Source of the DNA: Chitinophagaceae bacterium
Lineage (GTDB): Bacteria > Bacteroidota > Bacteroidia > Chitinophagales > Chitinophagaceae
Length of the DNA: 64,000 bases
NCBI GenBank assembly: GCA_024643655.1
Contig: JAHEMM010000006.1
Coordinates: 1 to 64,000 of the forward strand
Direction: 5' to 3'
Shown piece by piece: positions 10,213 through 37,895 of the stretch. The notes under the pieces are model-generated. The model saw only the letters and a list, made by a program, of their open reading frames with translations, did no database searches and was not told where the DNA came from. How positions within the stretch are numbered: position 1 is the stretch's first letter; every line of letters starts with the position of its first letter. A program made the position numbers and the translations under genes.

Positions 10213-10255
10213 TAAAAGTATATATGAAATTTGATGCTTTTTGTGACTTTGGTCA
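10213..10255 (-). promoter_or_regulatory. TGA-N6-TCA operator with TAnnTTTA -7 box
   Basis: TGACTTTGGTCA at 10244-10255; TACTTTTA (minus) at 10220-10213, 29.5 bp from centre. Confidence 0.55.
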
Positions 10256-10285
10256 GGCAAACCCCTGAGTAAAATTTGGCAACAA

Positions 10286-10999
10286 TTAAGGATAACAATT
10301 TACGTATTGACCGGGGGAATGTGGTAATTCCGGACTAATAAATGGTATGCCCAGATTCATTCCTCTTAGTATTAATAGTATACCCATTAAGGAGATAAAA
10401 ACAGGCACTAATTTTTGTAAACTTCTTCTCCAATCCGGGTGTATCATTTGTCCGGCATAACCAATTAACATCATAGCTGGTAAAGTGCCGGCGCCAAAAA
10501 GGGCCATAAAACTTACACTTTGTAAAACTTCCGAAAATGACAATGTTGCTGCTAAAGCAAAATAAATCATTCCACATGGAAGTAATCCGTTGGCCATTCC
10601 CATAAAAAGAAAGCCAACAACTCCTGTTGCTGATTTTAACAAACGACTTATCAATCGCTGAATCGAAAAATAAAATTTATTTAGAAATTTTAAATGGATG
10701 GTTCGTTGATTAATAAAATAAAGCACTGCCATGAGTAGTATAAGAATTCCTATGATTATAGAAAACCATTGTTGGTAACCAGAAATATAAATTCTTCTGC
10801 CAACTAACCCGAATAGTAAACCAAGTGTTGAATAGGTAATTATTCTACCCAGTTGATATGATAATAATGAAAAGAACTTTTTTGTATTAGAAAAATGATG
10901 AACAGGTAAAGCAAGGCTTAGTGGCCCACACATTCCAACACAGTGTAAGCTGCCGGCAAGACCAAGCATAAATCCTGATATCATAACAGACCAAATCAT
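10286..10999 (-). CDS. sulfite exporter TauE/SafE family protein (cbb3-cluster, CcoH/S-associated)
   Basis: Polytopic protein with GMCGPL motif, directly downstream of the ccoG/ccoH genes. Confidence 0.85.
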   Translation of the reverse strand: MIWSVMISGFMLGLAGSLHCVGMCGPLSLALPVHHFSNTKKFFSLLSYQLGRIITYSTLGLLFGLVGRRIYISGYQQWFSIIIGILILLMAVLYFINQRTIHLKFLNKFYFSIQRLISRLLKSATGVVGFLFMGMANGLLPCGMIYFALAATLSFSEVLQSVSFMALFGAGTLPAMMLIGYAGQMIHPDWRRSLQKLVPVFISLMGILLILRGMNLGIPFISPELPHSPGQYVNCYP

Positions 11000-11436
11000 T
11001 ATAGTACAGTTAATAATTTTTCTGTGAAATAATCTTTTCCTTCTGCAGACCAGTTGATTTTAACTGAATAATTACCTGGAGAAAAATCTTTTGGATCAAA
11101 GACCTGTAATCCATCTGAATCAGTTTGTAAGGGCAGTAGTTTATCTTTTTTTTGATCATAAGAGCAGTAAAACAAAATGCTTCCCGTAATTTCTTTATTC
11201 TTCATTTCAGCTGGTAGTTCTAAACTAATACCTGAGGTAGTTTGTCCAATTGTAACAGCTGTACTTAATTGATTAGCAAGGTTGGTTCCGTCAATCACTT
11301 GTTGATAACGGAGTTCTTGTTTGTAATAATCTTTATCTACTAACTCGTAGTTGGTATTTACGGCACGGTACACTAAATAAAACATACCAACTCCGAAAAC
11401 GATAAAAGTTATTAATAATTTGTTTCCCCAGTTCAT
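10999..11436 (-). CDS. ccoH: FixH/CcoH family protein
   Basis: N-terminal TM, 'NWGNKLLITFIVFGVGMFYLVYRAV'; position after ccoG. Confidence 0.85.
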   Translation of the reverse strand: MNWGNKLLITFIVFGVGMFYLVYRAVNTNYELVDKDYYKQELRYQQVIDGTNLANQLSTAVTIGQTTSGISLELPAEMKNKEITGSILFYCSYDQKKDKLLPLQTDSDGLQVFDPKDFSPGNYSVKINWSAEGKDYFTEKLLTVL

Positions 11437-11453
11437 ACTATTTTTTTAAGTGT

Positions 11454-12890
11454 TTAATATTTTCCAAACGGTCCTGCAAAATTGGTTGTTAGTGTTGTTA
11501 TTTTTTTATCGCCATCATAGAGTCCAATATTTAATTTTAATTTACGGCTTTTTACAAATGATCTTGGAAGCACTACAAAAAAGGAACCACTAGCCTGGTC
11601 TTCCTGCATCAAGTGAATATCACTAGCCCCAACCAATTCGATTTTTCCAGCATTAAAAGCATTGCCTTCTAATTTGAGTGTTACAGGGATATTTTTAATT
11701 GTTTTATTAATTACGCTGATATTAAATAGATTACTCAGGCTATCTGTACCTCTTTCCTGATACACCATTCCTTTTGTTCTGACAATTGTGCCATCAATAT
11801 CTTTTCGGCTTAGTAATAATAATGTAAGAATACCTGACAATAAAATTAATAATACAGTATAGAATTTCATCCTGCCGGTGTAACGTAATTTTTTGCCTTC
11901 TTGAATACCGGTTTCTGAGGCATACCGGATCAGGCCTTCTGGTTTGTGAATTGCCACCATCATTTTGTTACAAGCATCAATACAAGCAGTACAGCCAACA
12001 CATTCCATTTGAGTGCCATTGCGGATATCTATTCCTGTTGGACACACTTTTACACACTGAAAACAATCTATACAGTCGCCGGTATTGATTGCTACAGGTT
12101 GATTTTTTTTAAACTTTTCCCGGGGCTCACCTCTTTTATAATCATAAGCAACGATCATTGAATTTTTATCAAGTAATACGCCTTGCAAACGTCCATATGG
12201 GCAAACAACTGTACATACTTGTTCCCGAAAATTAGCGTACACACCATAAAAAATAAATGAGAATAGAATGATTGAAAGAAAACCTACTATATGATTACTG
12301 ACGGGTTCACTGATAATTGTCTTCAATTCATCTACACCTATAATATAAGCTAAAAAGAAATTAGCAATAATAAATGCCAGTAAAAAAAAGACAATATGTT
12401 TAATAGTTTTAATTCGAATCTTTTTTCCTGTCCATGGCGCCTTATTAAGAAGTTTTTGGTTTGCTGCATCGCCTTCAATAAGATATTCTACTTTTCTGAA
12501 AAGCATTTCCATGAAGATAGTTTGCGGGCAAACCCATCCACAAAATAACCGACCAAATGCTGCAGTAAACAAAACTATAAAGATGATGAATGTCACCATC
12601 GTTAATCCAAAAATGAAGAAATCTTGTGGCCAGAATATTTTTCCAAAGATGATAAACTTTGCTTCGGGTATATTAAATAAAAATAAAGGTCTTCCGTTTA
12701 TTTTTAAAAATGGTAAAGCGAAAAATAATCCAAAGAATCCCCAACTAACCAATGATCGTATATTGTAAAACCGTCCTTTTGGCTTCTGGGCAAAAATCCA
12801 ATTTCGCTTTCCCTTTTCATCAACAGTAGCAAGGTGATCCCGGAAAGATTCATCTTGTTCGTTTTTTTTTGTTTCAATTGATTCGTTCAT
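11454..12890 (-). CDS. ccoG: cytochrome c oxidase accessory protein CcoG (polyferredoxin)
   Basis: CGWVCPQTIFMEMLFRKVEYLIEG; CIDCFQCVKVCPTGIDIRNGTQMECVGCTACIDACN. Confidence 0.95.
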   Translation of the reverse strand: MNESIETKKNEQDESFRDHLATVDEKGKRNWIFAQKPKGRFYNIRSLVSWGFFGLFFALPFLKINGRPLFLFNIPEAKFIIFGKIFWPQDFFIFGLTMVTFIIFIVLFTAAFGRLFCGWVCPQTIFMEMLFRKVEYLIEGDAANQKLLNKAPWTGKKIRIKTIKHIVFFLLAFIIANFFLAYIIGVDELKTIISEPVSNHIVGFLSIILFSFIFYGVYANFREQVCTVVCPYGRLQGVLLDKNSMIVAYDYKRGEPREKFKKNQPVAINTGDCIDCFQCVKVCPTGIDIRNGTQMECVGCTACIDACNKMMVAIHKPEGLIRYASETGIQEGKKLRYTGRMKFYTVLLILLSGILTLLLLSRKDIDGTIVRTKGMVYQERGTDSLSNLFNISVINKTIKNIPVTLKLEGNAFNAGKIELVGASDIHLMQEDQASGSFFVVLPRSFVKSRKLKLNIGLYDGDKKITTLTTNFAGPFGKY

Positions 12891-12917
12891 TATTTTTTAT
12901 TCATACACCTGATGCAT

Positions 12918-14063
12918 TTATTTCTTCTCCACTGAAGTTGAATCACTTACTTTTTTTGGTGAAGATTCTTCTATATACAATTCTCCTTGTGCTTCTTTTG
13001 CATTCGCAGGATTGGAGCCTCTAAGTGTTTTTATATAACTGGTTAGTTGTGCTATTTGCTTTGCAGAAAGATCATCTTTCCAGCTACGCATTCCTTTACT
13101 GGTTCCATATTTAATGGTTTTAAAAATATCTTTTACACTGCCACCATTTATCCAATAGTCATCAGTAAGATTAGGACCAACTGCATTACCACCACCATCC
13201 GTATTATGACAGGCAGGACATTTACTTGGATCAATAAATAGAGCTTTGCCGGCTGCAATATCTTCCTCATTTGAGAGTAATGTAACAGTGTTTTCATCTA
13301 CTAATTCACCTTTCTTTTTTAGATACTGTTGTATTTTTATTTCAGCTTTAGCAACCGAATTTTCATATTCTTCTTTTTGTGAAGGACCATTATGTGATAC
13401 TTCAAATCGCCATAAATAAACAGCGGCGAAAATAATCGTAGCATAAAACCCATATAACCACCATGGAGGAAGGCGATTGTTTAATTCCCGGATGCCATCA
13501 TAGTCATGGCCAAGATCAAGTTCTGCTTCTTCACTTATCGGGCGAAGTTTATTTGCTTTATCCCACCAGCTTATTTTTTTCTCTTTAGGTACTTCTGCTA
13601 TTTTGATATCGGCAGCAGACACTACTTTTTCTTTGTTTAGTAAAAACTTAATATTTATTAATAAGGCAAGTATGGTAGCTAATTCTATAAATAATACCGA
13701 AACCATTATGTAGAATGTGGAAGCATCCATTCCGCCTATTACTTTTGGAGCTTTTACTTCAGCAACAACATCCTGTGCAAATACAGAAGCGGGAATAAGT
13801 AATGCCATTAACAAAAGCATTTTAATGGCATTTGTGTTTTTTTCTTGCTTTTGTTTATTCAACTTTACCTCAGCGGCGCCAATTACAATATTAGCAAGGA
13901 TGCCAATTACAATTAACAATAGTGCCATTAATACAATAAATGTTAGTGCTAATGGATTGCTCCAAATAGATGGAGATGGTGGTCCTTCGGCAAAGGCAGG
14001 TTGAACACTAAACACTAAGATTGTAGCGAGTAGGCCTGATATATATTTTAATTTTTTTCGCAT
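12918..14063 (-). CDS. ccoP: cbb3-type cytochrome c oxidase subunit III
   Basis: WWLYGFYATIIFAAVYLWRFEV; single heme motif CPACH. Confidence 0.92.
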   Translation of the reverse strand: MRKKLKYISGLLATILVFSVQPAFAEGPPSPSIWSNPLALTFIVLMALLLIVIGILANIVIGAAEVKLNKQKQEKNTNAIKMLLLMALLIPASVFAQDVVAEVKAPKVIGGMDASTFYIMVSVLFIELATILALLINIKFLLNKEKVVSAADIKIAEVPKEKKISWWDKANKLRPISEEAELDLGHDYDGIRELNNRLPPWWLYGFYATIIFAAVYLWRFEVSHNGPSQKEEYENSVAKAEIKIQQYLKKKGELVDENTVTLLSNEEDIAAGKALFIDPSKCPACHNTDGGGNAVGPNLTDDYWINGGSVKDIFKTIKYGTSKGMRSWKDDLSAKQIAQLTSYIKTLRGSNPANAKEAQGELYIEESSPKKVSDSTSVEKK

Positions 14064-14086
14064 ATAAAAATCGTTACAGTTGATGA

Positions 14087-14254
14087 TTAATTTTTATTGT
14101 CAAGAGGTATTCTGCTTACTTCTTCAAAGTCTTTCTTTTTAGTTTTAAAAACCCAGGTAAGCATTACAACAAAAAATAAGAAGAAGATGGATAATGATAC
14201 TAATCCCATTATATCAATTCCACTTACTTTTTCTATATAATTTATAAATTTCAT
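14087..14254 (-). CDS. ccoQ: CcoQ-like small subunit (55 aa, not in ORF track)
   Basis: Manually translated MKFINYIEKVSGIDIMGLVSLSIFFLFFVVMLTWVFKTKKKDFEEVSRIPLDNKN; single TM between ccoNO and ccoP. Confidence 0.85.
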   Translation of the reverse strand: MKFINYIEKVSGIDIMGLVSLSIFFLFFVVMLTWVFKTKKKDFEEVSRIPLDNKN

Positions 14255-14260
14255 ATGTTG

Positions 14261-16423: not shown

Positions 16424-16435
16424 AACTGAGATTAT

Positions 16436-16597
16436 TTATTTTGATTTGGTTGTAGAAGGTTTGTCATCGAATAGAATTCGGGAAGGAGGAGAGTAGTCAT
16501 CTTCAAACTGACCAGATTTAACACTCCATAGAAAGCCGACTAAAAAAATAGCTGCTACAGAAATACTGGCAATTAGTAAAATGATAATAACACTCAT
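16436..16597 (-). CDS. ccoS: CcoS cbb3 oxidase assembly protein (53 aa, not in ORF track)
   Basis: Manually translated MSVIIILLIASISVAAIFLVGFLWSVKSGQFEDDYSPPSRILFDDKPSTTKSK. Confidence 0.9.
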   Translation of the reverse strand: MSVIIILLIASISVAAIFLVGFLWSVKSGQFEDDYSPPSRILFDDKPSTTKSK

Positions 16598-16616
16598 TGG
16601 TTTGTTTTCAATATTG

Positions 16617-16681
16617 CAAACTTATTTTAGCTGCATTTTTGATAATCTAATATGTATCATCAAAAAAGCTGATTATAATCA
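16617..16681 (-). promoter_or_regulatory. cco operon operator/promoter
   Basis: TGATTATAATCA at 16670-16681; TAAGTTTG (minus) at 16624-16617, 51.5 bp from centre. Confidence 0.6.
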
Positions 16682-16708
16682 TATGATTAAGCTTTGATAA
16701 ACCAATAT

Positions 16709-19102: not shown

Positions 19103-19124
19103 AGTTCTCAGAATCTAAACCCAG

Positions 19125-19195
19125 CTAAAGTATCGGGGAAGGAATCCGTTCGGTATGAGAAGTTTCACCAGGCATACTGATTTTCGTCAGTATGC
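19125..19195 (-). promoter_or_regulatory. ccoI operator/promoter
   Basis: GCATACTGA-TTTTCG-TCAGTATGC at 19172-19195; TACTTTAG (minus) at 19132-19125, 51.5 bp from centre. Confidence 0.55.
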
Positions 19196-19216
19196 TTGTA
19201 CAACGCTATTTTGCCA

Positions 19217-19954: not shown

Positions 19955-19988
19955 AATAGATATGTTTTTAAATAATGTAAAAATTGTT

Positions 19989-20756: not shown

Positions 20757-20759
20757 GGG

Positions 20760-22741: not shown

Positions 22742-22742
22742 T

Positions 22743-24486: not shown

Positions 24487-26475
24487 TTATTTTGCTGCTG
24501 ATGGTGCAGGAGTTTTACCCATGCTAAATGAAATTGGTACATTACTACCAGCAGGAGAAACTCTTATATATCCTTGCATTTCCTGATGTAATGCTGAACA
24601 GAAGTCAGTACAATACATTGGAAACATTCCAACCTTTTCAGGTATCCATTTCAATGTTTGGGTCTCTCCCGGCATAATCAATAGTTCAGCATTATTAGCT
24701 CCCTTGATAGCAAAGCCATGTGGTACATCCCAATCTTGTTCGAGGTTTGTAAGGTGGAAATAAACCTCATCACCAACTTTTACACCTTCTATATTATCTG
24801 GATTAAAATGTGAACGAATAGATGTTATGTAAACATGCACTTTTTTGCCATCCCTTACTACTTTTGCCTGACCTTCACCTTTAGTAACATATGGATGTTC
24901 ATTCTCTTCAATTTTGAAAAACTTCACTGAATTTTTATTGATCAACGCAGCTGGTGCTGCTTGAGCATAGTGCGGTTCGCCAATAGTAGGGAAGTCAAGA
25001 ATCAATTTCATTTTATCTCCACTGATATCATATAACTGAGCACTCTGTGTTAATTCGGGCCCGGTAGGTAGATATCTATCTTTGGTGATCTTGTTATAAG
25101 CAACAAGATATTTGCCAAATGGTTTTCTGCTGTCACCACCAGGTACCATTAAATGTCCAATAGAATAATATGTAGGGACTCTATCGAGTACTTGAAGACT
25201 CTTTACATTCCATTTTACTACTTCAGAAGATACAAACATGGAAGTATATGCATTTCCATTGTTGTCAAATTCTGTATGTAATGGACCAAGACCCGGTTTC
25301 TGCACTTCTCCATGTAATGCTGCTTCATACTTTATTACTGGGATGCCTTCGTAATCGCCATCAAATGCTTTATCAGCAATAGCTTTTTGCAATTTTGTAA
25401 ATGAATAAACAGGCATTAATGCTGCCAACTTACCGCTGCCAACAATATATTCACCGGTAGGATCTACATCACAACCGTGGGGAGATTTAGGACAAGGGAT
25501 TAAATAAACGAGATCTGCCAGTTCTTTTGAATCAAGCACCGTTATTTCTGTCTCAATAGTAGAAGTAGCACTATGTGTTTTATCGCTATAAGTGTTGTGT
25601 GCATAGCGAACAGCTTGCTTTCTTCCTTTGCCTTGTTTTACATATTCTTCTGCTTTTTTCCAATTTACAGCCATTATAAAGTCCTTATCTCTTTGTGAAG
25701 CATTTACTTCTAATAAAGTATTGGCTTGCTCCGAATTATAGCAAGAGAAGAAGAACCATCCATGACTCGGCCCTTTACCAGCATGACTTAAATCGAAATT
25801 TACACCTGGTGTTCTTATCTGAAAAGCAATTTTCATATTACCTTCTTTAGGATCAACACTTAAAAAACTAACATTGCCTTTAAAATTTTGTTTGTAAGAA
25901 TCAATTGGAACATCTCCATTAGCATCGTCTGGTGGAATACTAAAACGGGTGCCAGCTACTACATATTCTGTATTTTCTGTTACAAAAGCAGATGAGTGGT
26001 TACCTGCACTATTAGGAATCTCAATAATTTCTGCTGTACGGAATGTTTTCAAATCGATTCTGGCAATACGTGGTGTATTATTCCCATTAATAAATACCCA
26101 ACGGCCATCTACTTCACCATTAGTTTGTGATAGTTCGGGATGGTGGGCATCATCCCACGGAACAAAACCGTGAGAAGTATTTAACATAGGTTTTGTTTCT
26201 TCACTAAATCCCCATCCTTTTTCTGGATCAGTTGAAAAAACAGGAATTACTCTCAATAATCTTCCGGATGGCAATCCATATACAGACATTTGTCCGCTAA
26301 AGCCACCAGAAACAAAATTGTAAAATTCATCATACTTGCCGGGAGCTACATATGCTTTTGAAGCATCTCCACTCGCAGCTGACTGTGTGCCTTTCGATTT
26401 ACAACTTTCCAATAGAAAAAAAGCGAAGGCTGCAATAAGGAGGTATTGCAATTTTTTAAGTTCAAAGGTTCTCAT
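24487..26475 (-). CDS. nosZ: nitrous-oxide reductase, Sec-dependent (clade II type)
   Basis: 662 aa; DDAHHPELSQTNGEVDGRWVFING, CuA motif CTDFCSALHQEMQG; no RR twin-arginine signal; FFLLESCKSKG lipoprotein-like N-terminus. Confidence 0.95.
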   Translation of the reverse strand: MRTFELKKLQYLLIAAFAFFLLESCKSKGTQSAASGDASKAYVAPGKYDEFYNFVSGGFSGQMSVYGLPSGRLLRVIPVFSTDPEKGWGFSEETKPMLNTSHGFVPWDDAHHPELSQTNGEVDGRWVFINGNNTPRIARIDLKTFRTAEIIEIPNSAGNHSSAFVTENTEYVVAGTRFSIPPDDANGDVPIDSYKQNFKGNVSFLSVDPKEGNMKIAFQIRTPGVNFDLSHAGKGPSHGWFFFSCYNSEQANTLLEVNASQRDKDFIMAVNWKKAEEYVKQGKGRKQAVRYAHNTYSDKTHSATSTIETEITVLDSKELADLVYLIPCPKSPHGCDVDPTGEYIVGSGKLAALMPVYSFTKLQKAIADKAFDGDYEGIPVIKYEAALHGEVQKPGLGPLHTEFDNNGNAYTSMFVSSEVVKWNVKSLQVLDRVPTYYSIGHLMVPGGDSRKPFGKYLVAYNKITKDRYLPTGPELTQSAQLYDISGDKMKLILDFPTIGEPHYAQAAPAALINKNSVKFFKIEENEHPYVTKGEGQAKVVRDGKKVHVYITSIRSHFNPDNIEGVKVGDEVYFHLTNLEQDWDVPHGFAIKGANNAELLIMPGETQTLKWIPEKVGMFPMYCTDFCSALHQEMQGYIRVSPAGSNVPISFSMGKTPAPSAAK

Positions 26476-27022: not shown

Positions 27023-27087
27023 CAAATGTATCTTTGATAGGATTTGCTTATTATGACTATCATCAAAAAAAAAACTGATAATAATCA
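27023..27087 (-). promoter_or_regulatory. nos operon promoter with tandem operators
   Basis: TGACTATCATCA (27054-27065) and TGATAATAATCA (27076-27087), 22 bp apart; TACATTTG (minus) at 27030-27023, 29.5 and 51.5 bp from their centres. Confidence 0.65.
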
Positions 27088-27121
27088 TCTAATTATAGTA
27101 TGTAGAAATTAATGTTTGCAT

Positions 27122-27562: not shown

Positions 27563-27580
27563 CACTAATGATCTGTTAAC

Positions 27581-27623
27581 TGACCTAAATCATTTTTTAA
27601 GAATCTTGACCCTTCTATTTTTA
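27581..27623 (+). promoter_or_regulatory. operator/promoter of ric-like gene
   Basis: TGACCTAAATCA 27581-27592; TATTTTTA 27616-27623, 29.5 bp from centre. Confidence 0.55.
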
Positions 27624-27641
27624 CCTTCAGAAATTCATTTT

Positions 27642-28391: not shown

Positions 28392-28413
28392 TAAATTTAA
28401 AAATTATCAAAGC

Positions 28414-29247
28414 TTATTCGTGAATACACATAATAGGAATATGTGATTGGAATATCAATTGCTTGGTACTACTTGGTTTAAAAATTCCATCCAGTAATTT
28501 GTGTTTTTTTGGTATTGCAATAATCAGGTCCATGTTATTTTTTTCTGCAAATTCATTGATGCCGTCTTCTATATCCGGATTGGTTATAAACTGATAAGTT
28601 GGTTTTAAATCGTCAAGTAAAAAGTGCAGCTTAAATGTTTGTTCAGGTGTTTCCGGATGAAAGTTTTTATTATTATAGTCGACATTTAGGATATGAAGAT
28701 CTGCCTTAAAAGTACTGACCATTTCTTTGATGACAGCTACTGGAGTTTTTTCTTGTACTTCTTTGAAATCGCAGGCAAAACCAATTTTATTGATACCTTT
28801 TCCATATTCTTTTCCTGGAGGTATAGCTATTACAGGCCAGGAAAGGTGACGAATTGCAGTTAAGGTAGTGCTTCCAAATAATAAGTTTTCAATTCCGGTT
28901 TTCCCTTTTGCCCCCATTATTACTGCAAATGGTTTTTCTTTATTGCAGAGTTCTTCAATTTCATCAATAGGAGTTCCAACTCTGCTTTCGATTTCAACTT
29001 TAATTTTTCCTGAAGTAATATGTAGTATATTATTTTTTAATTCTGTTAACTGCATTTCGCTATTTTTTTTCATTTCCTCTACTGAAACTACAACAACTGG
29101 AATTTCAGTGTAAGAAACAGGAATATTATATACATTCACTAGCAGTAATTCTGCATTTATGTCTACCGCCATGTCTGCCGCATAATTCAATGCATTTAAT
29201 GCAACAGGAGAAAAATCTGTAGGAACGATTATCTTTTTCATTTTCAT
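28414..29247 (-). CDS. universal stress protein, two UspA domains
   Basis: KKIIVPTDFSPVALNALNYAADMA; GAKGKTGIENLLFGSTT. Confidence 0.9.
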   Translation of the reverse strand: MKMKKIIVPTDFSPVALNALNYAADMAVDINAELLLVNVYNIPVSYTEIPVVVVSVEEMKKNSEMQLTELKNNILHITSGKIKVEIESRVGTPIDEIEELCNKEKPFAVIMGAKGKTGIENLLFGSTTLTAIRHLSWPVIAIPPGKEYGKGINKIGFACDFKEVQEKTPVAVIKEMVSTFKADLHILNVDYNNKNFHPETPEQTFKLHFLLDDLKPTYQFITNPDIEDGINEFAEKNNMDLIIAIPKKHKLLDGIFKPSSTKQLIFQSHIPIMCIHE

Positions 29248-29259
29248 TTTTTTGCAATA

Positions 29260-29302
29260 CTAATTTACGCATATTGGTATTAATAGTAAATGACTTCAAT
29301 CA
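29260..29302 (-). promoter_or_regulatory. usp operator/promoter
   Basis: TGACTTCAATCA 29291-29302; TAAATTAG (minus) at 29267-29260, 29.5 bp from centre. Confidence 0.5.
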
Positions 29303-29343
29303 TTGAATTGGATAAATTTTGTCCCGCAAATCATAGTCACAGA

Positions 29344-29386
29344 TGATTTTTGTCAAAAAGGATCGTTTAATTAGTGCCTAACTTTA
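29344..29386 (+). promoter_or_regulatory. operator/promoter of YgaP-like TM protein, possibly of the downstream kinase/regulator too
   Basis: TGATTTTTGTCA 29344-29355; TAACTTTA 29379-29386, 29.5 bp from centre. Confidence 0.55.
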
Positions 29387-29404
29387 ATTATTAAAAATTT
29401 CAAC

Positions 29405-29623
29405 ATGAAAAAGAATATGTCATCGTTTGATAGAGGTATTAGGTTATTGATTGTAGCAGTAATTGCTGTCTTGTATTTTACAAATTCTATATCTGGTATC
29501 TTGGCAATAGTATTGTTAATTGCGGCAGGAATATTTCTACTAACAAGTTTAGCCGGCTCTTGTCCTATGTATTCATTATTTGGGATTAGTACTTGTAAAG
29601 TAAACAAGGACACAACTAGTTAA
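29405..29623 (+). CDS. DUF2892/YgaP-like transmembrane protein
   Basis: 'SSFDRGIRLLIVAVIAVLYF', 'GSCPMYSLFGISTC'. Confidence 0.85.
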   Translation: MKKNMSSFDRGIRLLIVAVIAVLYFTNSISGILAIVLLIAAGIFLLTSLAGSCPMYSLFGISTCKVNKDTTS

Positions 29624-29714
29624 AAGATTTAAAATTTGTGCCTTGTACTCAGTATTTTTGTTATATTAAAAAGGAGGAAAATACTTCTCCAATATAATAA
29701 ATGACATAATCAAC

Positions 29715-30947
29715 ATGCTTGATCAGGTACACATGGTTTCTCTGTTTGAAAATGCAACAGAGGGAATAGTTTTAACAAATAGTCAAGGAGTTATTGTAAT
29801 GGCAAACCCAGCTGCAGAGAATATGTTTGGGTATGCAAAAAATGAATTGATCGGACATCCAATTGAAATTCTTATTCCTGAACAATTCAAGCCAAATCAT
29901 CATAAGCTAAGAGAAAGTTTTTATGAGCATCCTTCAAACAGGTCGATGGGTCATGGACGGGATTTGCATGGCAGAAAAAAAGATGGAACAAACCTTCCGG
30001 CAGAAGTTAGTTTAAGCCATTATGAAAGAGATGGCGAAATGTATGTGATTGCATTTATTGTAGATATATCTGAAAGGAAAGATATTGAAAACAATATGTT
30101 GTTACAAAAAGCAGAACTTGAAAATATTACAGGAAAAATAAGACAATTAAATGCTGAATTGGAAATAAAGGTTGAAGAGCGGACTTTGATATTAAAAGAA
30201 GCATTACAAAAATTGGAACAATCACAAAAGGAACTTAGTGAAGCATTGAATAAGGAACGAGAATTGAATGAAATAAAAAGCAGGTTTGTTTCAATGGCGT
30301 CACATGAATTCAGAACGCCGCTTACAACTGTATTTTCATCGGCATCACTTTTAGCTAAATATACGAATACAGAAGATCAGGATAAAAGGGATAAGCATAT
30401 TCAAAGGATAAAAAATTCCGTTTCTAACCTGAATGATATATTGGAAGATTTTCTGTCTTTGGGAAAACTAAATGAAGGAAAAGTTGAAAGCTTATCTGAG
30501 AAAATTAATATAAAAGAAGTTATTCAAGAAACATTGGAAGAAATGCATCCAATACTTAAAAAGAATCAACATTTTATAGTAGAGTGTGAAGGAGATTGTG
30601 TTGCATTTTCGGATGGGAAATTGCTTAAGAATATTTTGATTAATCTGATTAGTAACGCAATTAAATTTTCGGATGAAGGAAAACCTATTACTATAAAAGG
30701 AGTTCATGAAGCTGAAGTAGCAGCAATTTCAGTTGTCGATCAGGGTATAGGAATAGCTGATAAAGATATGGAGCACTTGTTTTCTAGTTTCTTTAGAGCC
30801 ACAAATGCTACCAATATTCAGGGTACAGGACTAGGATTACACATTGTTAAAAGATATGTTGATGTTTTGGGAGGGAAAGTAGGGATACAAAGTGTATTAA
30901 ATAGGGGCACAACTGTTAACTTTACTATACCTATAAATAAGACTTGA
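29715..30947 (+). CDS. PAS sensor histidine kinase (FixL-like PAS)
   Basis: PAS with EQFKPNHHKLRESF...GHGRDLHGRKKDGT; HisKA SHEFRTPL; HATPase GTGLGLHIVKRY. Confidence 0.92.
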   Translation: MLDQVHMVSLFENATEGIVLTNSQGVIVMANPAAENMFGYAKNELIGHPIEILIPEQFKPNHHKLRESFYEHPSNRSMGHGRDLHGRKKDGTNLPAEVSLSHYERDGEMYVIAFIVDISERKDIENNMLLQKAELENITGKIRQLNAELEIKVEERTLILKEALQKLEQSQKELSEALNKERELNEIKSRFVSMASHEFRTPLTTVFSSASLLAKYTNTEDQDKRDKHIQRIKNSVSNLNDILEDFLSLGKLNEGKVESLSEKINIKEVIQETLEEMHPILKKNQHFIVECEGDCVAFSDGKLLKNILINLISNAIKFSDEGKPITIKGVHEAEVAAISVVDQGIGIADKDMEHLFSSFFRATNATNIQGTGLGLHIVKRYVDVLGGKVGIQSVLNRGTTVNFTIPINKT

Positions 30948-32005
30948 ATATGAAATCAATTTTAGTAATCGACGATAATCCTGATATTAGAGATAATACT
31001 GCAGAAATACTTGAGTTGGCTGGATATAAAACATTTACAGCAGAAAATGGAAAGAGGGGAGTGGAAGTTGCTATAAAAGAAATACCTGATGTAATTGTTT
31101 GTGATATTATGATGCCAGAATTGGATGGATATGGTGTCCTTCATCTTTTGCGCAAAAATGATAGTACTGTGAATATTCCATTTGTATTTCTTACTGCAAA
31201 GACAGAAAGAAGTGATTTTAGAAAGGGAATGGAAATGGGTGCTGATGACTATATAACAAAGCCATTTGAAGATATTGAGTTATTAAATGCGATTGAGATG
31301 AGGCTTAAAAAAGCTAAAATCCTTGATAGTAAATATGCTCCTTCACAAGAAGGGATCAATGAATTTATTAAAGATGTAAAAAGTTCTGGACTAATTAGTC
31401 AATTGGCTGATCAGTATAATGTTGAAAGTTATACTAAAAAGCAGTCTTTGTACCAGGAATCTAAAAGGCCACGGTTTCTTTATTATCTAGTAAAAGGAAA
31501 AGCAAAAGGTATTAAAACTCATGAAGATGGGAAGGAATACATCACAAATCTTTTTAGCGACGGGGATTTTATTGGCTATCCTGCTTTAATAGAGGACAAA
31601 AATTATGATGATACTGTAGTGGTTATGGAAGAATCAGATATTATGCAGATCCCAAAAGAGGATTTTTTGCAGATGATATATGGTAATATGGATATTGCTG
31701 CAAAGTTTATTCGAATCATTACACAGAATGTGAAAGAGAAAGAAGAGAGGTTATTAAGCCTGGCCTATAGTTCTCTAAGAAAAAGAGTGGCCAAAGCTTT
31801 GGTAGATATACAGACTAAATTTAATGCAGAAAATGAAAATAAACCTTTGGAGATTTCAAGAGAAGATTTTGCACATTATGTTGGAACAGCAACAGAGTCT
31901 TTGATAAGAACTCTAAGTGATTTTAAATCAGAGAAGCTAATAGCAATAAAAGAAGGGAAAATTGCAATCCTCAACATCGAAAAATTATCAAATTTACTAT
32001 ACTAA
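30944..32005 (+). CDS. response regulator: receiver + cNMP-binding + CRP/FNR HTH fusion
   Basis: Receiver ILVIDDNPDIR/PDVIVCDIMMPELDG/TAK; cNMP-like fold; HTH 'ISREDFAHYVGTATESLIRTLSDFKSEKLI'; 4-nt overlap with kinase. Confidence 0.93.
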   Translation: MNMKSILVIDDNPDIRDNTAEILELAGYKTFTAENGKRGVEVAIKEIPDVIVCDIMMPELDGYGVLHLLRKNDSTVNIPFVFLTAKTERSDFRKGMEMGADDYITKPFEDIELLNAIEMRLKKAKILDSKYAPSQEGINEFIKDVKSSGLISQLADQYNVESYTKKQSLYQESKRPRFLYYLVKGKAKGIKTHEDGKEYITNLFSDGDFIGYPALIEDKNYDDTVVVMEESDIMQIPKEDFLQMIYGNMDIAAKFIRIITQNVKEKEERLLSLAYSSLRKRVAKALVDIQTKFNAENENKPLEISREDFAHYVGTATESLIRTLSDFKSEKLIAIKEGKIAILNIEKLSNLLY

Positions 32006-32006
32006 A

Positions 32007-32038
32007 AACCCCCATCATTTCAATTTATGACGGGGGTT
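32007..32038. terminator. terminator
   Basis: AACCCCCATCA...TGACGGGGGTT (one internal mismatch). Confidence 0.7.
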
Positions 32039-32059
32039 CAATTTCTAAAAACATCCGTT

Positions 32060-32512
32060 TTAATTAACCGAAATGCTTTTAACTTTTTTAGGTTGCTTTA
32101 ATTCCATTTTTGGAATAGTAAGCTTTAACTCACCATTTTTGTACACCGCATCAATTTTACTAAAGTTGCAATTTTCAGGAAGTGTAAAGTTTCTGCTCCA
32201 ACTTGAATAATTGTATTCTCTACGATTAAATCGACCATTTTCTTCCTCTTTTTCTTCTTTTTCAGTCTCTGCGCTAATGGTTATCATATCGTCATATGCA
32301 TCTACTTTAAAATCCTTTTTTTCTAAACCAGGAGCAGCTATACATAAATTGAATTCTTTTTCAGTTTCACTTATGTTAACTGCAGGAACATTAATTGCTT
32401 TTCCAAGATTAAAGTATTCATCCATTGGTGTGTTAAAAAATTTGTCCATCCAGCCACTTTCAAAAACAGATGGCCAGGAGTTTCTGGGCTTCTCTACTGT
32501 TTTGTTTTCCAT
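32060..32512 (-). CDS. Hsp20/alpha-crystallin family protein
   Basis: 'PAVNISETEKEFNLCIAAPGLEKKDFKVD', 'YKNGELKLTIPK'. Confidence 0.93.
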   Translation of the reverse strand: MENKTVEKPRNSWPSVFESGWMDKFFNTPMDEYFNLGKAINVPAVNISETEKEFNLCIAAPGLEKKDFKVDAYDDMITISAETEKEEKEEENGRFNRREYNYSSWSRNFTLPENCNFSKIDAVYKNGELKLTIPKMELKQPKKVKSISVN

Positions 32513-32546
32513 ACATTTTATTTTTAAGGTGAAAGAATCTTTTGGG

Positions 32547-32611
32547 GTAATTTACTAATCCTCACCTCAAAGAACAATGATTAATGTTTGACAGAATAAT
32601 GATATTCGTCA
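32547..32611 (-). promoter_or_regulatory. hsp20 operator/promoter
   Basis: TGATATTCGTCA 32600-32611; TAAATTAC (minus) at 32554-32547, 51.5 bp from centre. Confidence 0.45.
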
Positions 32612-32632
32612 GTTTATAAAATGTAGTATAAT

Positions 32633-33073
32633 TCAATGATCTGAATCCCGACTTAAATCATAGTCTTGAGGTTTTTCAATTGATTTTTTTACAGTAGAAA
32701 TTTCCCTGCCATGATTATTTTGTTGTTGTAAGGTCCAGTTATCTGTCATAGTTGTTTCCAACCATAGATTACCTGATTTTCGGAATACCTGAACGGCAAG
32801 TCGAAACTTATCTCTAAAAATATTCTCGAATTCATTTACTTTCATTTCCTCATTAATTTCTAAAGTTGTATCAACTATACCCAACTGCCCATCCCCTAGT
32901 TTTTTATTGTGCGGGATAATCTGGCTGGAGCTGAAATTACTTCGGGTAAAAGATTTATTATTGAAAAATTCAAGTTTCAAAAAAGGAAATTGACTGTTAA
33001 ACTCTTTTTGTATATCACTAATAAGCGTATTTGAAGAAATTATTAAAGACATAATTAAGTGATTAGTAAACAT
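32633..33073 (-). CDS. hypothetical protein
   Basis: 146-aa ORF, 11-nt overlap with hsp20-like gene; alternative start at MSLIISS (33052). Confidence 0.7.
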   Translation of the reverse strand: MFTNHLIMSLIISSNTLISDIQKEFNSQFPFLKLEFFNNKSFTRSNFSSSQIIPHNKKLGDGQLGIVDTTLEINEEMKVNEFENIFRDKFRLAVQVFRKSGNLWLETTMTDNWTLQQQNNHGREISTVKKSIEKPQDYDLSRDSDH

Positions 33074-33485
33074 AAATAGTAGCTTTCTCTTTGTTTTCGA
33101 CTGAGTCGCTTCTCGGAATATGGATAATTAATTCTCCATTTAAATAGTCTGCATGAGCTAATATAGCTTCCGCATCATTTGGTAATTTAAAAGTTCTGGT
33201 CCACTCTGTAAGATCATATTCGCAACGATCGATTGTGTCTTGAGTCGTTGTAGAATCTTTCTTCCCTGAAATTGTAAGAATCGAGTTTTTGAATTCAATG
33301 CAGAAATCATCTCTCTGTAGCCCAGGCGTTGCAATTATTATTACATAATTATCTTTATTTTCTACAATATTTACGGGTGGAATAAGTAATGAAGCAACAA
33401 GGGCAAAATCTTCTGATTGATTGAAATAATCAACTTTTGATTTATGAATGGGGATTTTTTTATTACATGCTATTCCCGGATACAT
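33063..33485 (-). CDS. Hsp20/alpha-crystallin family protein
   Basis: 'PPVNIVENKDNYVIIIATPGLQRDDFCIEF', 'YLNGELIIHIPR'. Confidence 0.9.
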   Translation of the reverse strand: MYPGIACNKKIPIHKSKVDYFNQSEDFALVASLLIPPVNIVENKDNYVIIIATPGLQRDDFCIEFKNSILTISGKKDSTTTQDTIDRCEYDLTEWTRTFKLPNDAEAILAHADYLNGELIIHIPRSDSVENKEKATIYVY

Positions 33486-33504
33486 AATTGTTGTTTTAAA
33501 AAAG

Positions 33505-33569
33505 TGAAAATAAATTTAGTCACTCCAAAAAAAAATGACATACTACAGTGCCTGCAATGATTTAAATCA
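33505..33569 (-). promoter_or_regulatory. operator/promoter of second hsp20 unit
   Basis: ATGATTTAAATCAT perfect palindrome at 33557-33570; TATTTTCA (minus) at 33512-33505, 51.5 bp from centre. Confidence 0.45.
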
Positions 33570-33654
33570 TCAAATTCAATTATATGTAATCGAATATTGC
33601 GAAAGTATTTTATGGGAATATTTTATGTGATTTAATTTTATTACTTTTTTCAAT

Positions 33655-34164
33655 ATGGATGATAGTTTTTTTTCATATTTAGAACGCCTTCAGATAATGG
33701 GGTTCTTTGTTGCTTATCCTATAGTCTATTTATTTGTTAAAAGCTTTTTTAGCGGAGCGAAAAATGAAAGAATTAGTCAACTCCCTTTTTTCTTATCCTA
33801 TGCATATGCATTAGTTGGCACTTTATATGTGGGTCTTTTGATCAGGGATTTATATCCATTTTCTTCAGTCTTGCAAAATGATTCTAGTAATTTATTTTCA
33901 TTTTTGAAAATATGGGGATTGCTCTCTTTAATTTTCTGGATTCCAAAAATTGCAAAACAGCCAGTGTTTAGCTTGCTTCACAGTCTTATTTTTTTCTATT
34001 TTTTAGTTAAGGATTTACTCTTTTTTACTATAAAGTTGAGAGATGAAACTGTTATTAAAAATGATATGCGTGTATTTACAGATAGTTTGCTATTAAATAT
34101 TATTTCCCTTTTTTTTATTTTTCTAATTGCTCTATTGTATCGTTGGGTAAAAAAGACAACATAG
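33655..34164 (+). CDS. hypothetical membrane protein
   Basis: 169 aa, about 4-5 hydrophobic segments. Confidence 0.7.
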   Translation: MDDSFFSYLERLQIMGFFVAYPIVYLFVKSFFSGAKNERISQLPFFLSYAYALVGTLYVGLLIRDLYPFSSVLQNDSSNLFSFLKIWGLLSLIFWIPKIAKQPVFSLLHSLIFFYFLVKDLLFFTIKLRDETVIKNDMRVFTDSLLLNIISLFFIFLIALLYRWVKKTT

Positions 34165-34189
34165 TCTTTTTAATTACAAATTCCTGATG

Positions 34190-34254
34190 TGACAAATATC
34201 ACTTTAGTTTTTGATGCAAGTCATGATAAGATAAATTATTCAAAAATAGCTTTA
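34190..34254 (+). promoter_or_regulatory. yceI-like gene promoter with tandem operators
   Basis: TGACAAATATCA 34190-34201 and TGATGCAAGTCA 34212-34223, 22 bp apart; TAGCTTTA 34247-34254, 51.5 and 29.5 bp from their centres. Confidence 0.65.
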
Positions 34255-34297
34255 CACCGATAACAAAAAACAATTATTCACATTTAATTAAAATTTT

Positions 34298-35092
34298 ATG
34301 AAACTGTTTAATAATAAAACTCTATTGGTATTGCTGCTTTTAATTAGCGGATACGGGTATATGATAAGTTGCACAAGGGATAACGATTTGATTGTGCCGG
34401 TGCAATTAACTCAACCATTCGTTCCCAATAGGGGAAACAATGTACACACACCTGGCACGCAAACTGCAGGTGATCCAGCTCAATGGAAAATGGATAAATC
34501 TCACTCTAGTGTTCTTTGGTCAACCAGTTATGTAGGGGCTTCAGGCTTGCTAACAGGACGGTTCAATCAATTCGGTACACATGAAGTAACTGCTGCTGAA
34601 ATGCAAAATTATACTACTTCTGGACAGCCTTTGCTTGATAATTCATGGGCATTTAATGAAAGTGATCCAAGCCAGACTTTTATTAATGGTTATGTTCAAA
34701 TAAACACATCCAATACTGGTGAGCCGGGTAGAGATGCTGGCTGTAACATAAGTGGAATGGGAACTACTGCAATAGTTTCAGGTACTCAGAATCTTAATGT
34801 TACAAATATTGCCAAAATAAAATCAACTAAAGTTGAATTGGATCCTACTAGTAACGGTTACATCGTCACACTGGATTTTACCTGGCAAGGAAAGTTGACT
34901 TCACCACTAACAAAATCTATAGTTGGTAAATTAAATTATGTGCCAAAATCTAGAATAGCTAGCGCAACACCCTATGATGTATTTGGACTTCAATTATTAT
35001 TCTCTTTCAATTGTCGTGACTTTGGAATTACCAGTACAAGTATTGCCGATAAAATTGACATAGAATGTAACATGAATTTCCACAATAAATAA
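34298..35092 (+). CDS. YceI family lipoprotein
   Basis: MISCTRDN lipobox; 'WKMDKSHSSVLWSTSYVGASGLLTGRFNQF'. Confidence 0.85.
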   Translation: MKLFNNKTLLVLLLLISGYGYMISCTRDNDLIVPVQLTQPFVPNRGNNVHTPGTQTAGDPAQWKMDKSHSSVLWSTSYVGASGLLTGRFNQFGTHEVTAAEMQNYTTSGQPLLDNSWAFNESDPSQTFINGYVQINTSNTGEPGRDAGCNISGMGTTAIVSGTQNLNVTNIAKIKSTKVELDPTSNGYIVTLDFTWQGKLTSPLTKSIVGKLNYVPKSRIASATPYDVFGLQLLFSFNCRDFGITSTSIADKIDIECNMNFHNK

Positions 35093-35111
35093 AAAAATAA
35101 AACTATTTATT

Positions 35112-35495
35112 ATGAAACGTATACTATTATATATTGCTTTGATTGTTTCAATTGGTATAGCTATGTCGGGTTGCTATAAAGATATCATAAAGCCCGATTT
35201 GCCAAAAGATCCAAATGCACCCCCGCAACAAGTAAGTTATGCTAATGAATTAAAGCCTTTATTAGCGGCAAGTTGTGCAGAAGTTGGATGTCATGTGTCT
35301 GGTGCTCATAAACCTTATTTAACTCCAGATGTATCTTATCAACAAATAGTTAATGGTGGTTTTGTGAATTTGGCCTTACCAAATCAAAGCATTTTGATTA
35401 CAATGCTAAATGGCGATATGTCTCAGTACATGCCATCGGCGGATAATAGACAAAAAGTGCTTGATTGGATAAGAAATGGAGCACCAAATAATTAA
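35112..35495 (+). CDS. lipoprotein with CX4CH putative heme motif (cytochrome c-like)
   Basis: MSGCYKD lipobox; 'LKPLLAASCAEVGCHVSGAHKPYL'. Confidence 0.75.
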   Translation: MKRILLYIALIVSIGIAMSGCYKDIIKPDLPKDPNAPPQQVSYANELKPLLAASCAEVGCHVSGAHKPYLTPDVSYQQIVNGGFVNLALPNQSILITMLNGDMSQYMPSADNRQKVLDWIRNGAPNN

Positions 35496-35515
35496 CTGAC
35501 TTAAACTTAATTACA

Positions 35516-36562
35516 ATGAAACTTAAAAATATAAAAAAACGAACCTCACTTTTGGTGCCTTTCATTCTTTTTGGTTTCCTTTTTATTCTTGGGGGTAGTT
35601 TGTTCGCACAAGAGGAGTCAACAACAGATGTTCAGGAAAAAATAGTAAAAGAAAAACCTGTAAAAAATACATTTGAAAGTGTATGGATAGGGGATAATCA
35701 AACTATTCTGGTTCCTATTAAAGGAACAATGGAAATGGATATTCAACACCGATTTGGCACCTGGAATAAAGGATATGATGATTTCTGGGGGTTTTTTGCT
35801 CCATCCAATATACGAATTGGTATGAGTTATGTTCCAATTAAGAATTTAAATATCGGAGTTGGATTTACTAAAACATCTGCAGCAGTAATCCCAAAAGGAG
35901 GAATTTCATCAGTGGCGGGACCATTATGGGATGGTAGCTTGAAATATTCAATCATAACGCAAACAAAAGGAAAATATCCTGTAAGTTTAAGTTATTATGT
36001 TAATGCTGCATTTAATACAAAGAAGGATCCGAATAACGAAATTTATCGTTATAGTAGTGATCGATTATCATATTTCCATCAATTATTGATTGCAAGAAAA
36101 TTAACTGATAAGCTTTCCGTTCAGGTAGCACCAAGTGTTTCGCATCATAATGTAGTAAATGGGTATTTTACAAAACTTAATGATTCGACTTTGCAAATTA
36201 ACAAATCAATGAAGTTTGATCACATTGCGGTTGCTTTATCTGCCAGGTATAAACTAACTGGCGTAACTTCTTTGATGATTAATTATGATCAACCAATTAC
36301 TAAACATGCAACTAAAAATCCAAATCCTAGTTTATCCTTTGGAGTAGAATTTAATACAAGTAGCCACTCGTTTCAGTTGTTTTTTACTAACTATTATTAT
36401 TTGAATCCTTCGATAAATAATATGTTTAATTCTAATAATCCGTTTACTTATACGGATAAATCAACTGACAATCCTGCAACTACTGATATTATTGAAAGCA
36501 CAGAAGTTAAGGGGGGAAGGTTTCTCATTGGATTTAATATTACCAGACTTTGGAATTATTAA
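35516..36562 (+). CDS. DUF5777-like beta-barrel outer membrane protein
   Basis: 'MEMDIQHRFGTWNKGYDDFWGFFAPSNIRIGMSYVPIKNLNIGVGFTK'. Confidence 0.8.
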   Translation: MKLKNIKKRTSLLVPFILFGFLFILGGSLFAQEESTTDVQEKIVKEKPVKNTFESVWIGDNQTILVPIKGTMEMDIQHRFGTWNKGYDDFWGFFAPSNIRIGMSYVPIKNLNIGVGFTKTSAAVIPKGGISSVAGPLWDGSLKYSIITQTKGKYPVSLSYYVNAAFNTKKDPNNEIYRYSSDRLSYFHQLLIARKLTDKLSVQVAPSVSHHNVVNGYFTKLNDSTLQINKSMKFDHIAVALSARYKLTGVTSLMINYDQPITKHATKNPNPSLSFGVEFNTSSHSFQLFFTNYYYLNPSINNMFNSNNPFTYTDKSTDNPATTDIIESTEVKGGRFLIGFNITRLWNY

Positions 36563-36600
36563 TTAAAACGTAAAATAGATATTGCATCATATTGTTATTT

Positions 36601-36632
36601 AATCCCCGAACTTCCTTGGTTCGGGGATTTTA
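36601..36632. terminator. terminator
   Basis: AATCCCCGAAC-N7-GTTCGGGGATT. Confidence 0.8.
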
Positions 36633-36650
36633 TGCGATCAATAAATTAAT

Positions 36651-37166
36651 ATGAATTGGCCAAGAATTAGATTTCAGACGCATTTTAAATTGCTTTTTTT
36701 TATTTTCTTTTTTAGTCAAATACTTTCTTGTAGAAGTCATAAGGAGAAAAGTAATAATCAACTGCAACAAAGCGCAAAGTCTGAATATCTCAAGCCACCA
36801 TCTAGTTATCAAGATAGTCTGATTATTAATAGAGCTTCAGCTGTTTTTTATTACCCAGACTCATTACAGTTGCTACAAATAAAAGCTCTTATGGATAGTA
36901 GTGAGTATGATGGTACAATGCATGAATTTTTTTATCAAATCAGGAATTCAAAAATTGTAATAAAAAAAAATTATCCTAATTTAAACATCATTGATGTTAA
37001 ACATTATCGCTTTCTTTTATTTCAAAATAATAATAAGCTAACTGAAATCATTGATCTTAATAAGCAGAATGATGCATACGGACTTTTTCTTTTTAATCAA
37101 GCAAAATCTCCCCAACTTGTAGATATGACAAATATTGAAACGGCTTTAGATACTTATTTTAAATGA
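36651..37166 (+). CDS. hypothetical lipoprotein
   Basis: FSQILSCRSH lipobox; 171 aa. Confidence 0.65.
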   Translation: MNWPRIRFQTHFKLLFFIFFFSQILSCRSHKEKSNNQLQQSAKSEYLKPPSSYQDSLIINRASAVFYYPDSLQLLQIKALMDSSEYDGTMHEFFYQIRNSKIVIKKNYPNLNIIDVKHYRFLLFQNNNKLTEIIDLNKQNDAYGLFLFNQAKSPQLVDMTNIETALDTYFK

Positions 37167-37215
37167 TAAAATGTTTAAAAGAATTGTCTAAAAAGGATAT
37201 TGGCATCTTTAAATA

Positions 37216-37280
37216 TGATTAAAATCAGTTAGACAACCTATCGATATCAATTCTCATCATTAAGCTTTAAACTACTTTGC
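37216..37280 (+). promoter_or_regulatory. cytochrome c gene operator/promoter
   Basis: TGATTAAAATCA 37216-37227; TACTTTGC 37273-37280, 51.5 bp from centre. Confidence 0.5.
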
Positions 37281-37329
37281 ATTAGGAAAAATCAAATAAT
37301 ATATTTTCAACTTAATAAATAGAAATAAA

Positions 37330-37743
37330 ATGAAAAAAAGCATTCTTACACCTATTCTTATCTTAATCAGCGGTTTATTCATTTTCAGTGTTTTAACTGC
37401 TTTTAAAACATTTGAAGGACAAAAACCATGGCCAGTGCCGGATAAGTATAAAAACATGAAAAATCCTATTAAGTCAGATGCCTCTTCTATAGCATCTGGT
37501 AAAGCACTATGGAATACACATTGCAAATCTTGTCATGGTAGTAAAGGATTGGGTGATGGATCAAAGGCAGCACAATTGAAAACTGAACCTGGAAATTTTT
37601 CACTTGCAGCTTTTAAATCTCAATCCGATGGATCAATATTTTATAAAACTACAGAGGGCAGAGATGATATGCCAGGTTTTAAGAAGAAAATTTCGGATGA
37701 TGATGATAGATGGGCTATTGTGAATTTCATAAGAAGTTTATAG
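37330..37743 (+). CDS. c-type cytochrome
   Basis: Signal anchor; CKSCHGSKGLGDGSKAAQL; 'RDDMPGFKKKISDDDDRWAIVNFIRSL'. Confidence 0.92.
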   Translation: MKKSILTPILILISGLFIFSVLTAFKTFEGQKPWPVPDKYKNMKNPIKSDASSIASGKALWNTHCKSCHGSKGLGDGSKAAQLKTEPGNFSLAAFKSQSDGSIFYKTTEGRDDMPGFKKKISDDDDRWAIVNFIRSL

Positions 37744-37765
37744 TTAGTATGTAGGATATTATTAT

Positions 37766-37803
37766 AAAAGCCAGTCAACTAAAATTGACTGGCTTTTATT
37801 TTT
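37766..37803 (+). terminator. terminator
   Basis: AAAAGCCAGTCAA/TTGACTGGCTTTT plus T-run. Confidence 0.85.
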
Positions 37804-37830
37804 CAGCAAATATTTTCAGTATAGGTTGTG

Positions 37831-37895
37831 TGACAAAAGTCATATATGGCTATGATGCAAATACTTATTTAAAATTAGAGGGCAACTTACTTTAC
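37831..37895 (+). promoter_or_regulatory. ferredoxin/NrfD operon operator/promoter
   Basis: TGACAAAAGTCA 37831-37842; TACTTTAC 37888-37895, 51.5 bp from centre. Confidence 0.5.

Follow-up and report, generated by a model that had tools for sequence, protein, structure and literature searches.

The window analysed here is a stretch of 64,000 nucleotides from a Chitinophagaceae bacterium (GenBank assembly GCA_024643655.1, contig JAHEMM010000006.1, positions 1 to 64,000). It is part of contig C128 in our numbering, in an assembly of 3.17 Mb with 177 contigs and a completeness of 97.6%. Between 10 and 43 kb it contains a respiratory region encoding fused ccoNO subunits, CcoG, a CcoI-like P-type ATPase, a Sec-type NosZ with NosD, two RIC di-iron proteins, Rrf2, Usp, two Hsp20 proteins, YceI, small cytochromes c and a DsrO/DsrP-like pair. 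Within it, a block at 29715-32005 encodes a cytosolic PAS histidine kinase (29715..30947, + strand) and a protein in which a receiver domain is joined to a cyclic nucleotide (cNMP)-type domain and a Crp helix-turn-helix (HTH), referred to below as REC-CRP (30944..32005, + strand, likely ATG at 30950). The closest relatives of REC-CRP come from Chitinophagaceae and other Bacteroidota metagenome assemblies, with identities of 87-81%. The subject of this work is a promoter element that recurs through the respiratory region, in which TGA-N6-TCA palindromes stand at fixed distances from a TAnnTT box, and its likely regulator.

The original prediction listed 14 such palindromes in the region, each with a TA-N2-TT box whose start lies exactly 29.5 or 51.5 bp from the palindrome centre. 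All 14 are present, with boxes at exactly these distances, and the 8-mers quoted for the boxes agree with the sequence at every site. The list was nevertheless incomplete. It lacked an operator at 19156 (TGAGAAGTTTCA, box at 29.5 bp), which pairs with the site at 19178, and, for five other 51.5 bp sites, the proximal partners, which are degenerate. The core had been described as one common to CRP and FNR; the operator is FNR-like rather than CRP-like, the tighter form TGAY-N4-RTCA being fitted by 14/14 sites. In the whole window TGA-N6-TCA occurs 42 times, as against 26 ± 4.8 in shuffled sequence. Around these 42 palindromes, TAnnTT boxes were found eight times at 29.5 bp and eight times at 51.5 bp, with a mean of 0.81 and a maximum of 3 at other distances. 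A box at either distance is found for 16/42 sites, whereas 2,000 shifted controls gave 1.5 such sites on average and 7 at most. The additional match, at 24915 inside nosZ, is probably due to chance.

Each of the eight window sites with a box at 51.5 bp has a second operator, of varying quality, between it and the box. Three of these proximal partners are without mismatch (19156, 27054 and 34212). In the ccoI promoter (- strand) the distal operator is at 19178..19189, the proximal one, TGAAACTTCTCA on the minus strand, at 19156-19167 and the box TACTTTAG at 19125-19132; in the promoter of the cytochrome c/nosZ operon (- strand) they are at 27076..27087, 27054-27065 and 27023-27030 (box TACATTTG), and a unit with one mismatch on the + strand indicates that this pair may also serve rrf2; and in the promoter expected to drive the yceI operon from 34298 (+ strand) they are at 34190..34201, 34212-34223 and 34247-34254 (box TAGCTTTA). 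One mismatch is present in the proximal operator of the cco promoter, which would drive a ccoS-like open reading frame (ORF) and ccoNO (- strand; distal 16670..16681, proximal TGATACATATTA 16648-16659, box TAAGTTTG 16617-16624), and in that of the hsp20 gene at 33063-33485 (- strand; distal 33558..33569, proximal TGTAGTATGTCA 33536-33547, box TATTTTCA 33505-33512). Two mismatches are found before the other hsp20 gene, at 32060-32512 (- strand; distal 32600..32611, degenerate proximal AAACATTAATCA 32578-32589, box TAAATTAC 32547-32554), before the cytochrome c gene at 37330-37743 (+ strand; distal 37216..37227, degenerate proximal CTATCGATATCA 37238-37249, box TACTTTGC 37273-37280), and before a 77-aa ORF at 37921-38154 that is followed by the DsrO/DsrP-like operon (+ strand; distal 37831..37842, half-site proximal TGATGCAAATAC 37853-37864, box TACTTTAC 37888-37895).

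Four window promoters have a single operator. These are 27581..27592 (+ strand, box TATTTTTA at 27616-27623), which would drive the second ric/scdA-like gene (likely ATG 27642); 29291..29302 (- strand, box TAAATTAG at 29260-29267), which would drive usp (28414-29247); 29344..29355 (+ strand, box TAACTTTA at 29379-29386), which would drive a 72-aa YgaP-like ORF (29405-29623) and then possibly the kinase and regulator genes; and 10244..10255 (- strand, proximal-type operator TGACCAAAGTCA, box TACTTTTA at 10213-10220). At 29291 and 29344 an upstream partner with two mismatches can be seen. The site at 10244 is the least certain member. The original prediction counted it under the cco operon, which is either mistaken or unproven, because the box points away from the cco genes and towards a structured non-coding stretch and trmD; the site is also not conserved in relatives. 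Directly after this promoter, an 89-nt stretch (10120-10208, - strand) has a strong predicted fold (z -5.0). It may encode a small RNA under the control of the regulator, on the lines of FnrS, or may be no more than the terminator of the cco operon. No conserved site was found there among the relatives, and the Rfam matches around 10.1 kb all score below the gathering score.

The arrangement was then compared across species using the intergenic DNA of 80 loci that carry a receiver-CRP gene, 1.42 Mb in total, and locus counts below refer to this set. TAnnTT boxes near TGA-N6-TCA occur 147 times at 29.5 bp and 159 times at 51.5 bp, as against about 8 at other distances; with TGAY-N4-RTCA the corresponding counts are 96, 125 and about 5. 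When the windows are aligned the box reads TAnnTTTG, with G at 66-72%, while the bases between operator and box are almost unconserved, so that selection, rather than recent copying, accounts for the constant spacing. In the aligned 51.5 bp windows a second TGA-N6-TCA is centred 22 bp downstream, with a per-base conservation of 84-96%, and a proximal operator at 29.5 bp with at most one mismatch accompanies 138/159 (87%) of the 51.5 bp sites. Pairs of palindromes give 232 counts at 22 bp and 0-10 at each of the remaining spacings in the range of 10 to 59 bp, one pair being countable from both of its members. A genome-wide search independent of the box, in 14 genomes of several families, found at least 53 pairs at 22 bp, with a maximum of 7 at other spacings from 12 to 42 bp among the pairs listed. 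The second commonest pitch among the pairs listed is 23 bp, mostly from a single genome (G049, with four tandem pairs), and is possibly a lineage variant. As read from these alignments, the promoter unit is a distal operator, 22 bp, a proximal operator, 29.5 bp and TAnnTTTG, with some promoters keeping the proximal operator only.

In Flavobacterium psychrophilum, transcription start site data place the TAnnTTTG box at -12 to -5 (PMC9723704). Transferred across species, this position would centre the proximal operator on -41.5 and the distal operator on -63.5. The first of these is the class II position, and so the fixed distance and the class II geometry originally proposed for the 29.5 bp spacing both hold. 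The second was proposed to be an alternative, class I, arrangement, the two distances defining two classes of single-operator promoter under one regulator. The four single promoters in the window would fit such a scheme, as would the 34/241 units in the related loci that combine a good distal with a poor proximal operator. It is however unlikely, given that the great majority of the 51.5 bp sites form the upstream half of a tandem, partnered exactly 22 bp downstream, and are not isolated operators lying at -61.5, or more distant on the same helical face. The centre at -63.5 also differs from the classical -61.5, and in the 80 loci no peaks were found at further class I positions (40, 62, 73 and 84 bp), nor any third operator another 22 bp upstream. 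A different division of labour is known from the dual-anaerobox fnrN promoter of Rhizobium leguminosarum, where dual FNR-type sites have opposite effects (PMC7888657); by analogy, the distal operator here might activate and the proximal one repress. We regard this as very unlikely, because the proximal operator lies at the classical activating position, is the sole operator in single-site promoters, and is almost always present together with the distal operator before the cco genes, which need induction.

The proposal of a coherent respiratory and low-oxygen regulon is supported, and the same targets repeat across the related loci. Units (with tandem units in brackets) were found before ccoI in 31 (30) cases, ccoNO in 18 (18), the ccoS-like gene in 12 (12) and the nos cytochrome c gene in 11 (11), whereas for the stress genes only about half are tandem (hsp20 6/13, usp 8/13, ric 8/14). 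A check of conservation before orthologues of nosZ, ccoN and yceI had been proposed; what is found is that, across families of the phylum, the unit precedes a recurring set of genes, namely ccoS/ccoNO, ccoI, cytochrome c/nos, ric, usp and hsp20. Since both operators are palindromic, one pair can serve two divergent promoters, and among the matches listed genomes G371, G150, G365, G293, G389 and G064 have a pair that forms a perfect unit on each strand. A kinase gene lies downstream of a unit in five loci including the window, where the position of the 29344 site before the kinase and regulator genes suggests autoregulation.

A search of 393 genomes of the phylum was used to relate the unit to its regulator. 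Full-length REC-CRP is present in 60 of them; there were 63 rows, of which three (G051, G280 and G284) are receiver-only matches and were not counted as REC-CRP. At least three units, with at most one mismatch, were found among the matches listed in 43 genomes, of which 33 have REC-CRP, 9 have an FNR-type protein alone and 1 has neither. Expressed differently, at least three units are found among the matches listed in 33/60 genomes with REC-CRP and 10/333 without (odds ratio 39, Fisher p 7e-23), these counts being hand-tallied and the genomes not independent. It could be argued that the whole pattern reflects chance or the shared ancestry of the clusters, the loci being related by descent and palindromes being common in AT-rich DNA. 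The probability of this is negligible: the distances remain exact although the sequence between the elements is not conserved, controls with the reversed pattern give almost no units among the matches listed, the spacing recurs genome-wide and, for units among the matches listed, in families of other orders and classes, and only one of the 43 unit-rich genomes lacks both regulators.

REC-CRP is a member of the CRP/FNR superfamily (PF00027 1.1e-17 and PF13545 4.1e-14, above the cut-offs), matching the structures of CRP, FNR and FixK2, with CrpPg (2GAU) as the closest solved structure. Its receiver has the residues for phosphorylation expected of a response regulator, CD[IV]MMP being present in 80/80 loci and LTAK and TKPF nearly invariant, and its recognition helix, GTATESLIRTLSDF, is identical in 66/80. 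In CRP, Glu72 and Arg82 contact cyclic AMP (cAMP). On alignment to 1i6x these positions read Tyr and Asp in REC-CRP, unlike a cAMP-dependent CRP, and the CRP part contains no cysteine, whereas FNR proper has an N-terminal cysteine cluster for its [4Fe-4S] centre. Sensing of cAMP or of an Fe-S cluster by REC-CRP itself was therefore rejected, and phosphorylation is the expected input, because the cNMP-type domain has neither the cAMP-contacting residues nor the FNR cysteines.

REC-CRP was the regulator put forward in the original prediction, and it is the most likely candidate, both from its association with the unit and from a comparison of recognition helices within its own genome. That genome has three HTH_Crp_2 proteins, and the ATESxIR helix is found in REC-CRP alone; the other two were rejected as regulators on account of their differing helices, SARQTVTT and SSREVISR. 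It is worth adding that a CRP-type regulator with the helix SSREVISRLL lies in a sulfide-oxidation-like cluster (locus L170, G000:C17, 1055-14265) with, by eye, SQR-, dioxygenase- and rhodanese-like proteins and a TauE-like protein, and with GTGAY-N4-RTCAC palindromes, two of which have a box 29.5 bp away, so that the -41.5 geometry may be general for CRP activators of the phylum.

The operators could instead be bound mainly by another CRP/FNR protein, either an FNR-type protein with a [4Fe-4S] cluster or another Crp, with REC-CRP having other targets. In nine of the ten unit-rich genomes that lack REC-CRP, a match to P0003 identifies an FNR-type protein. Seven of these nine proteins were read, and have the helix GTATE[ST]xxIRLLSEF or close to it, together with N-terminal cysteines; in those of G150, G365, G017 and G272 the cysteines form Cx2Cx8C plus a distal Cys, and probably bind [4Fe-4S]. 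In G150 and G017 the unit precedes the ccoS/ccoN operon, as it does in the window, so that FNR-type proteins with the same helix appear to serve the unit where REC-CRP is absent. In 33 genomes with an FNR-type regulator, mainly of family f5, the commonest distance between TAnnTTTG and single TGATN4RTCA sites, which have no tandem partner, is 29.5 bp (84 of the 150 matches listed, with 20 at 30.5 bp). Against this, no such FNR-type protein was found above the search threshold in the genome studied here, the completeness of 97.6% leaving a missed gene possible, and of its two other HTH_Crp_2 proteins, whose helices differ, one is that of the sulfide-oxidation-like cluster with its GTGAY-N4-RTCAC sites. 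We therefore consider this explanation quite unlikely. The idea that an FNR-type protein suffices for the tandem unit was also rejected, since tandem units are almost absent, among the matches listed, from family f25 and most of f5, in which the protein is present; the prevailing form in f5 is the single 29.5 bp site. Two further observations concern the distribution of the unit. In distant members of the phylum from family f47 (G272, G307, G381 and G385), each genome has at least 14-16 matches to the unit, and an FNR-type regulator is present without a receiver-CRP. A genome of the same genus as ours (G115, 2.0 Mb) has no full ccoN match, no regulator and, among the matches listed, no unit, which has the appearance of coordinated loss.

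The kinase encoded next to REC-CRP begins with its PAS domain, followed by HisKA (PF00512) and HATPase (PF02518) domains. The best PDB matches of the PAS domain are the heme-PAS domains of FixL and DosP (E ~4e-16), with a gapless alignment across the FixL heme pocket. His62 falls in the column of the FixL heme ligand, and a histidine is found there in 55/55 alignable neighbouring kinases. By sequence the protein is thus a FixL-type kinase, with a FixL-homologous PAS domain, the proximal histidine, HisKA and HATPase, and its PAS domain likely binds heme.

Taken together, we consider it very probable that the region belongs to a regulon of an FNR-like activator that is wired as a two-component system and acts through the tandem unit. 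In the proposed mechanism, low oxygen would relieve the FixL-like heme kinase, which would then phosphorylate the receiver of REC-CRP. The phosphorylated dimer would bind the proximal operator at -41.5 and activate RNA polymerase with sigma-A in class II fashion, and a second dimer at -63.5, abutting the first on the same DNA face, would stabilise it cooperatively. The FixL, FixJ and FixK steps of rhizobia would in this way be collapsed into two proteins, and in relatives without REC-CRP the FNR-type protein with the same recognition helix would serve the same unit. We give about even chances to the broader idea that the rigid 22 bp pitch, locked to the sigma-A box, makes two CRP-family dimers into one cooperative unit that can work in two directions, in which the sensory half is swapped (heme-PAS kinase plus receiver, or Fe-S cluster) while the helix and the DNA unit stay fixed.

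Several observations weigh against these proposals. The presence of a REC-CRP gene was the criterion for selecting the 80 loci, which also share ancestry. Some genomes with REC-CRP, mostly from f5 and with a diverged REC-CRP, hold only 0-1 units among the matches listed. The proximal partner is degraded at 5/8 distal sites in the window. The kinase is adjacent to the regulator in only 56/80 loci, Arg82 of the kinase, in the column of FixL Arg220, is kept in only 38/55 kinases, and the histidine of the ligand column can also be shared by PAS domains that bind no heme. Finally, the genome-wide enrichment of the raw spacings that had been proposed as a test was not seen: the other contigs of this genome, scanned together with their coding DNA, gave 4 matches at each of the two distances, compared with a mean of about 4 per distance, among the matches listed. 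This is not taken as a refutation, because coding DNA gives about 4 matches per distance and swamps the roughly ten real sites. The stricter tandem-plus-box unit, with at most one mismatch, gave at least 12 matches in this genome and 0 for the reversed control. Further units there (gene names by eye) lie before a GltD-like oxidoreductase (G000:C33:26506), a Usp-like gene (C161:11499) and a small membrane protein (C153:438).

The control of microaerobic and nitrous oxide respiration in Bacteroidota has been little described, although many carry clade II nosZ and cbb3 oxidases. An exactly spaced DNA signature allows such a regulon to be read straight from genomes, and points to its regulator and a probable oxygen sensor; it also offers a clean test of CRP-family activators at the unusual Bacteroidota promoter. 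No published description of the tandem unit was found in the open-licence literature. In DNA geometry the unit resembles the class II promoters of Escherichia coli FNR, which have a TGAT-N4-ATCA core centred at -41.5. Here, however, the outer T of TTGAT is not conserved (T 20-31%), the second operator is at -63.5 and not -61.5, and the receiver-CRP has no N-terminal cysteine cluster. The target genes recall the dormancy regulon of mycobacterial DosR, in which heme-sensing kinases likewise lead to induction of hsp20 and usp under low oxygen or NO; DosR is a LuxR/NarL-type regulator, and its DNA binding is unrelated.

Within the phylum, the CRP/FNR proteins described in two sources are HcpR/HcpR2, PgRsp and CrpPg (PMC1274295, PMC12040651), the last of which is stated there to be cAMP-independent. 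They belong to the same superfamily, but HcpR2 has the motif GTAACnnnnGTTAC and hcp-only regulons, a receiver domain is absent, and the passages concerned describe no tandem phased operators. In its proposed working the system is like the rhizobial FixL-FixJ-FixK/FnrN system (fixNOQP, fixGHIS), in which a PAS kinase, a receiver and a CRP/FNR activator control cbb3 oxidase genes, and in which the operator TTGAT-N4-ATCAA is common to kinase-driven and Fe-S FNR-type regulators (PMC7888657). The system described here does not itself belong to the rhizobial one: there is no separate FixJ inducing fixK, the receiver being fused to the CRP/FNR part; the operators are often in tandem at 22 bp; the promoter is of the Bacteroidota TAnnTTTG type; and in some genomes the FNR-type protein replaces the kinase-driven regulator rather than backing it up. 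Such a sensor swap over an unchanged operator would offer a manageable example of how regulation evolves, comparable to FixK and FnrN in rhizobia.

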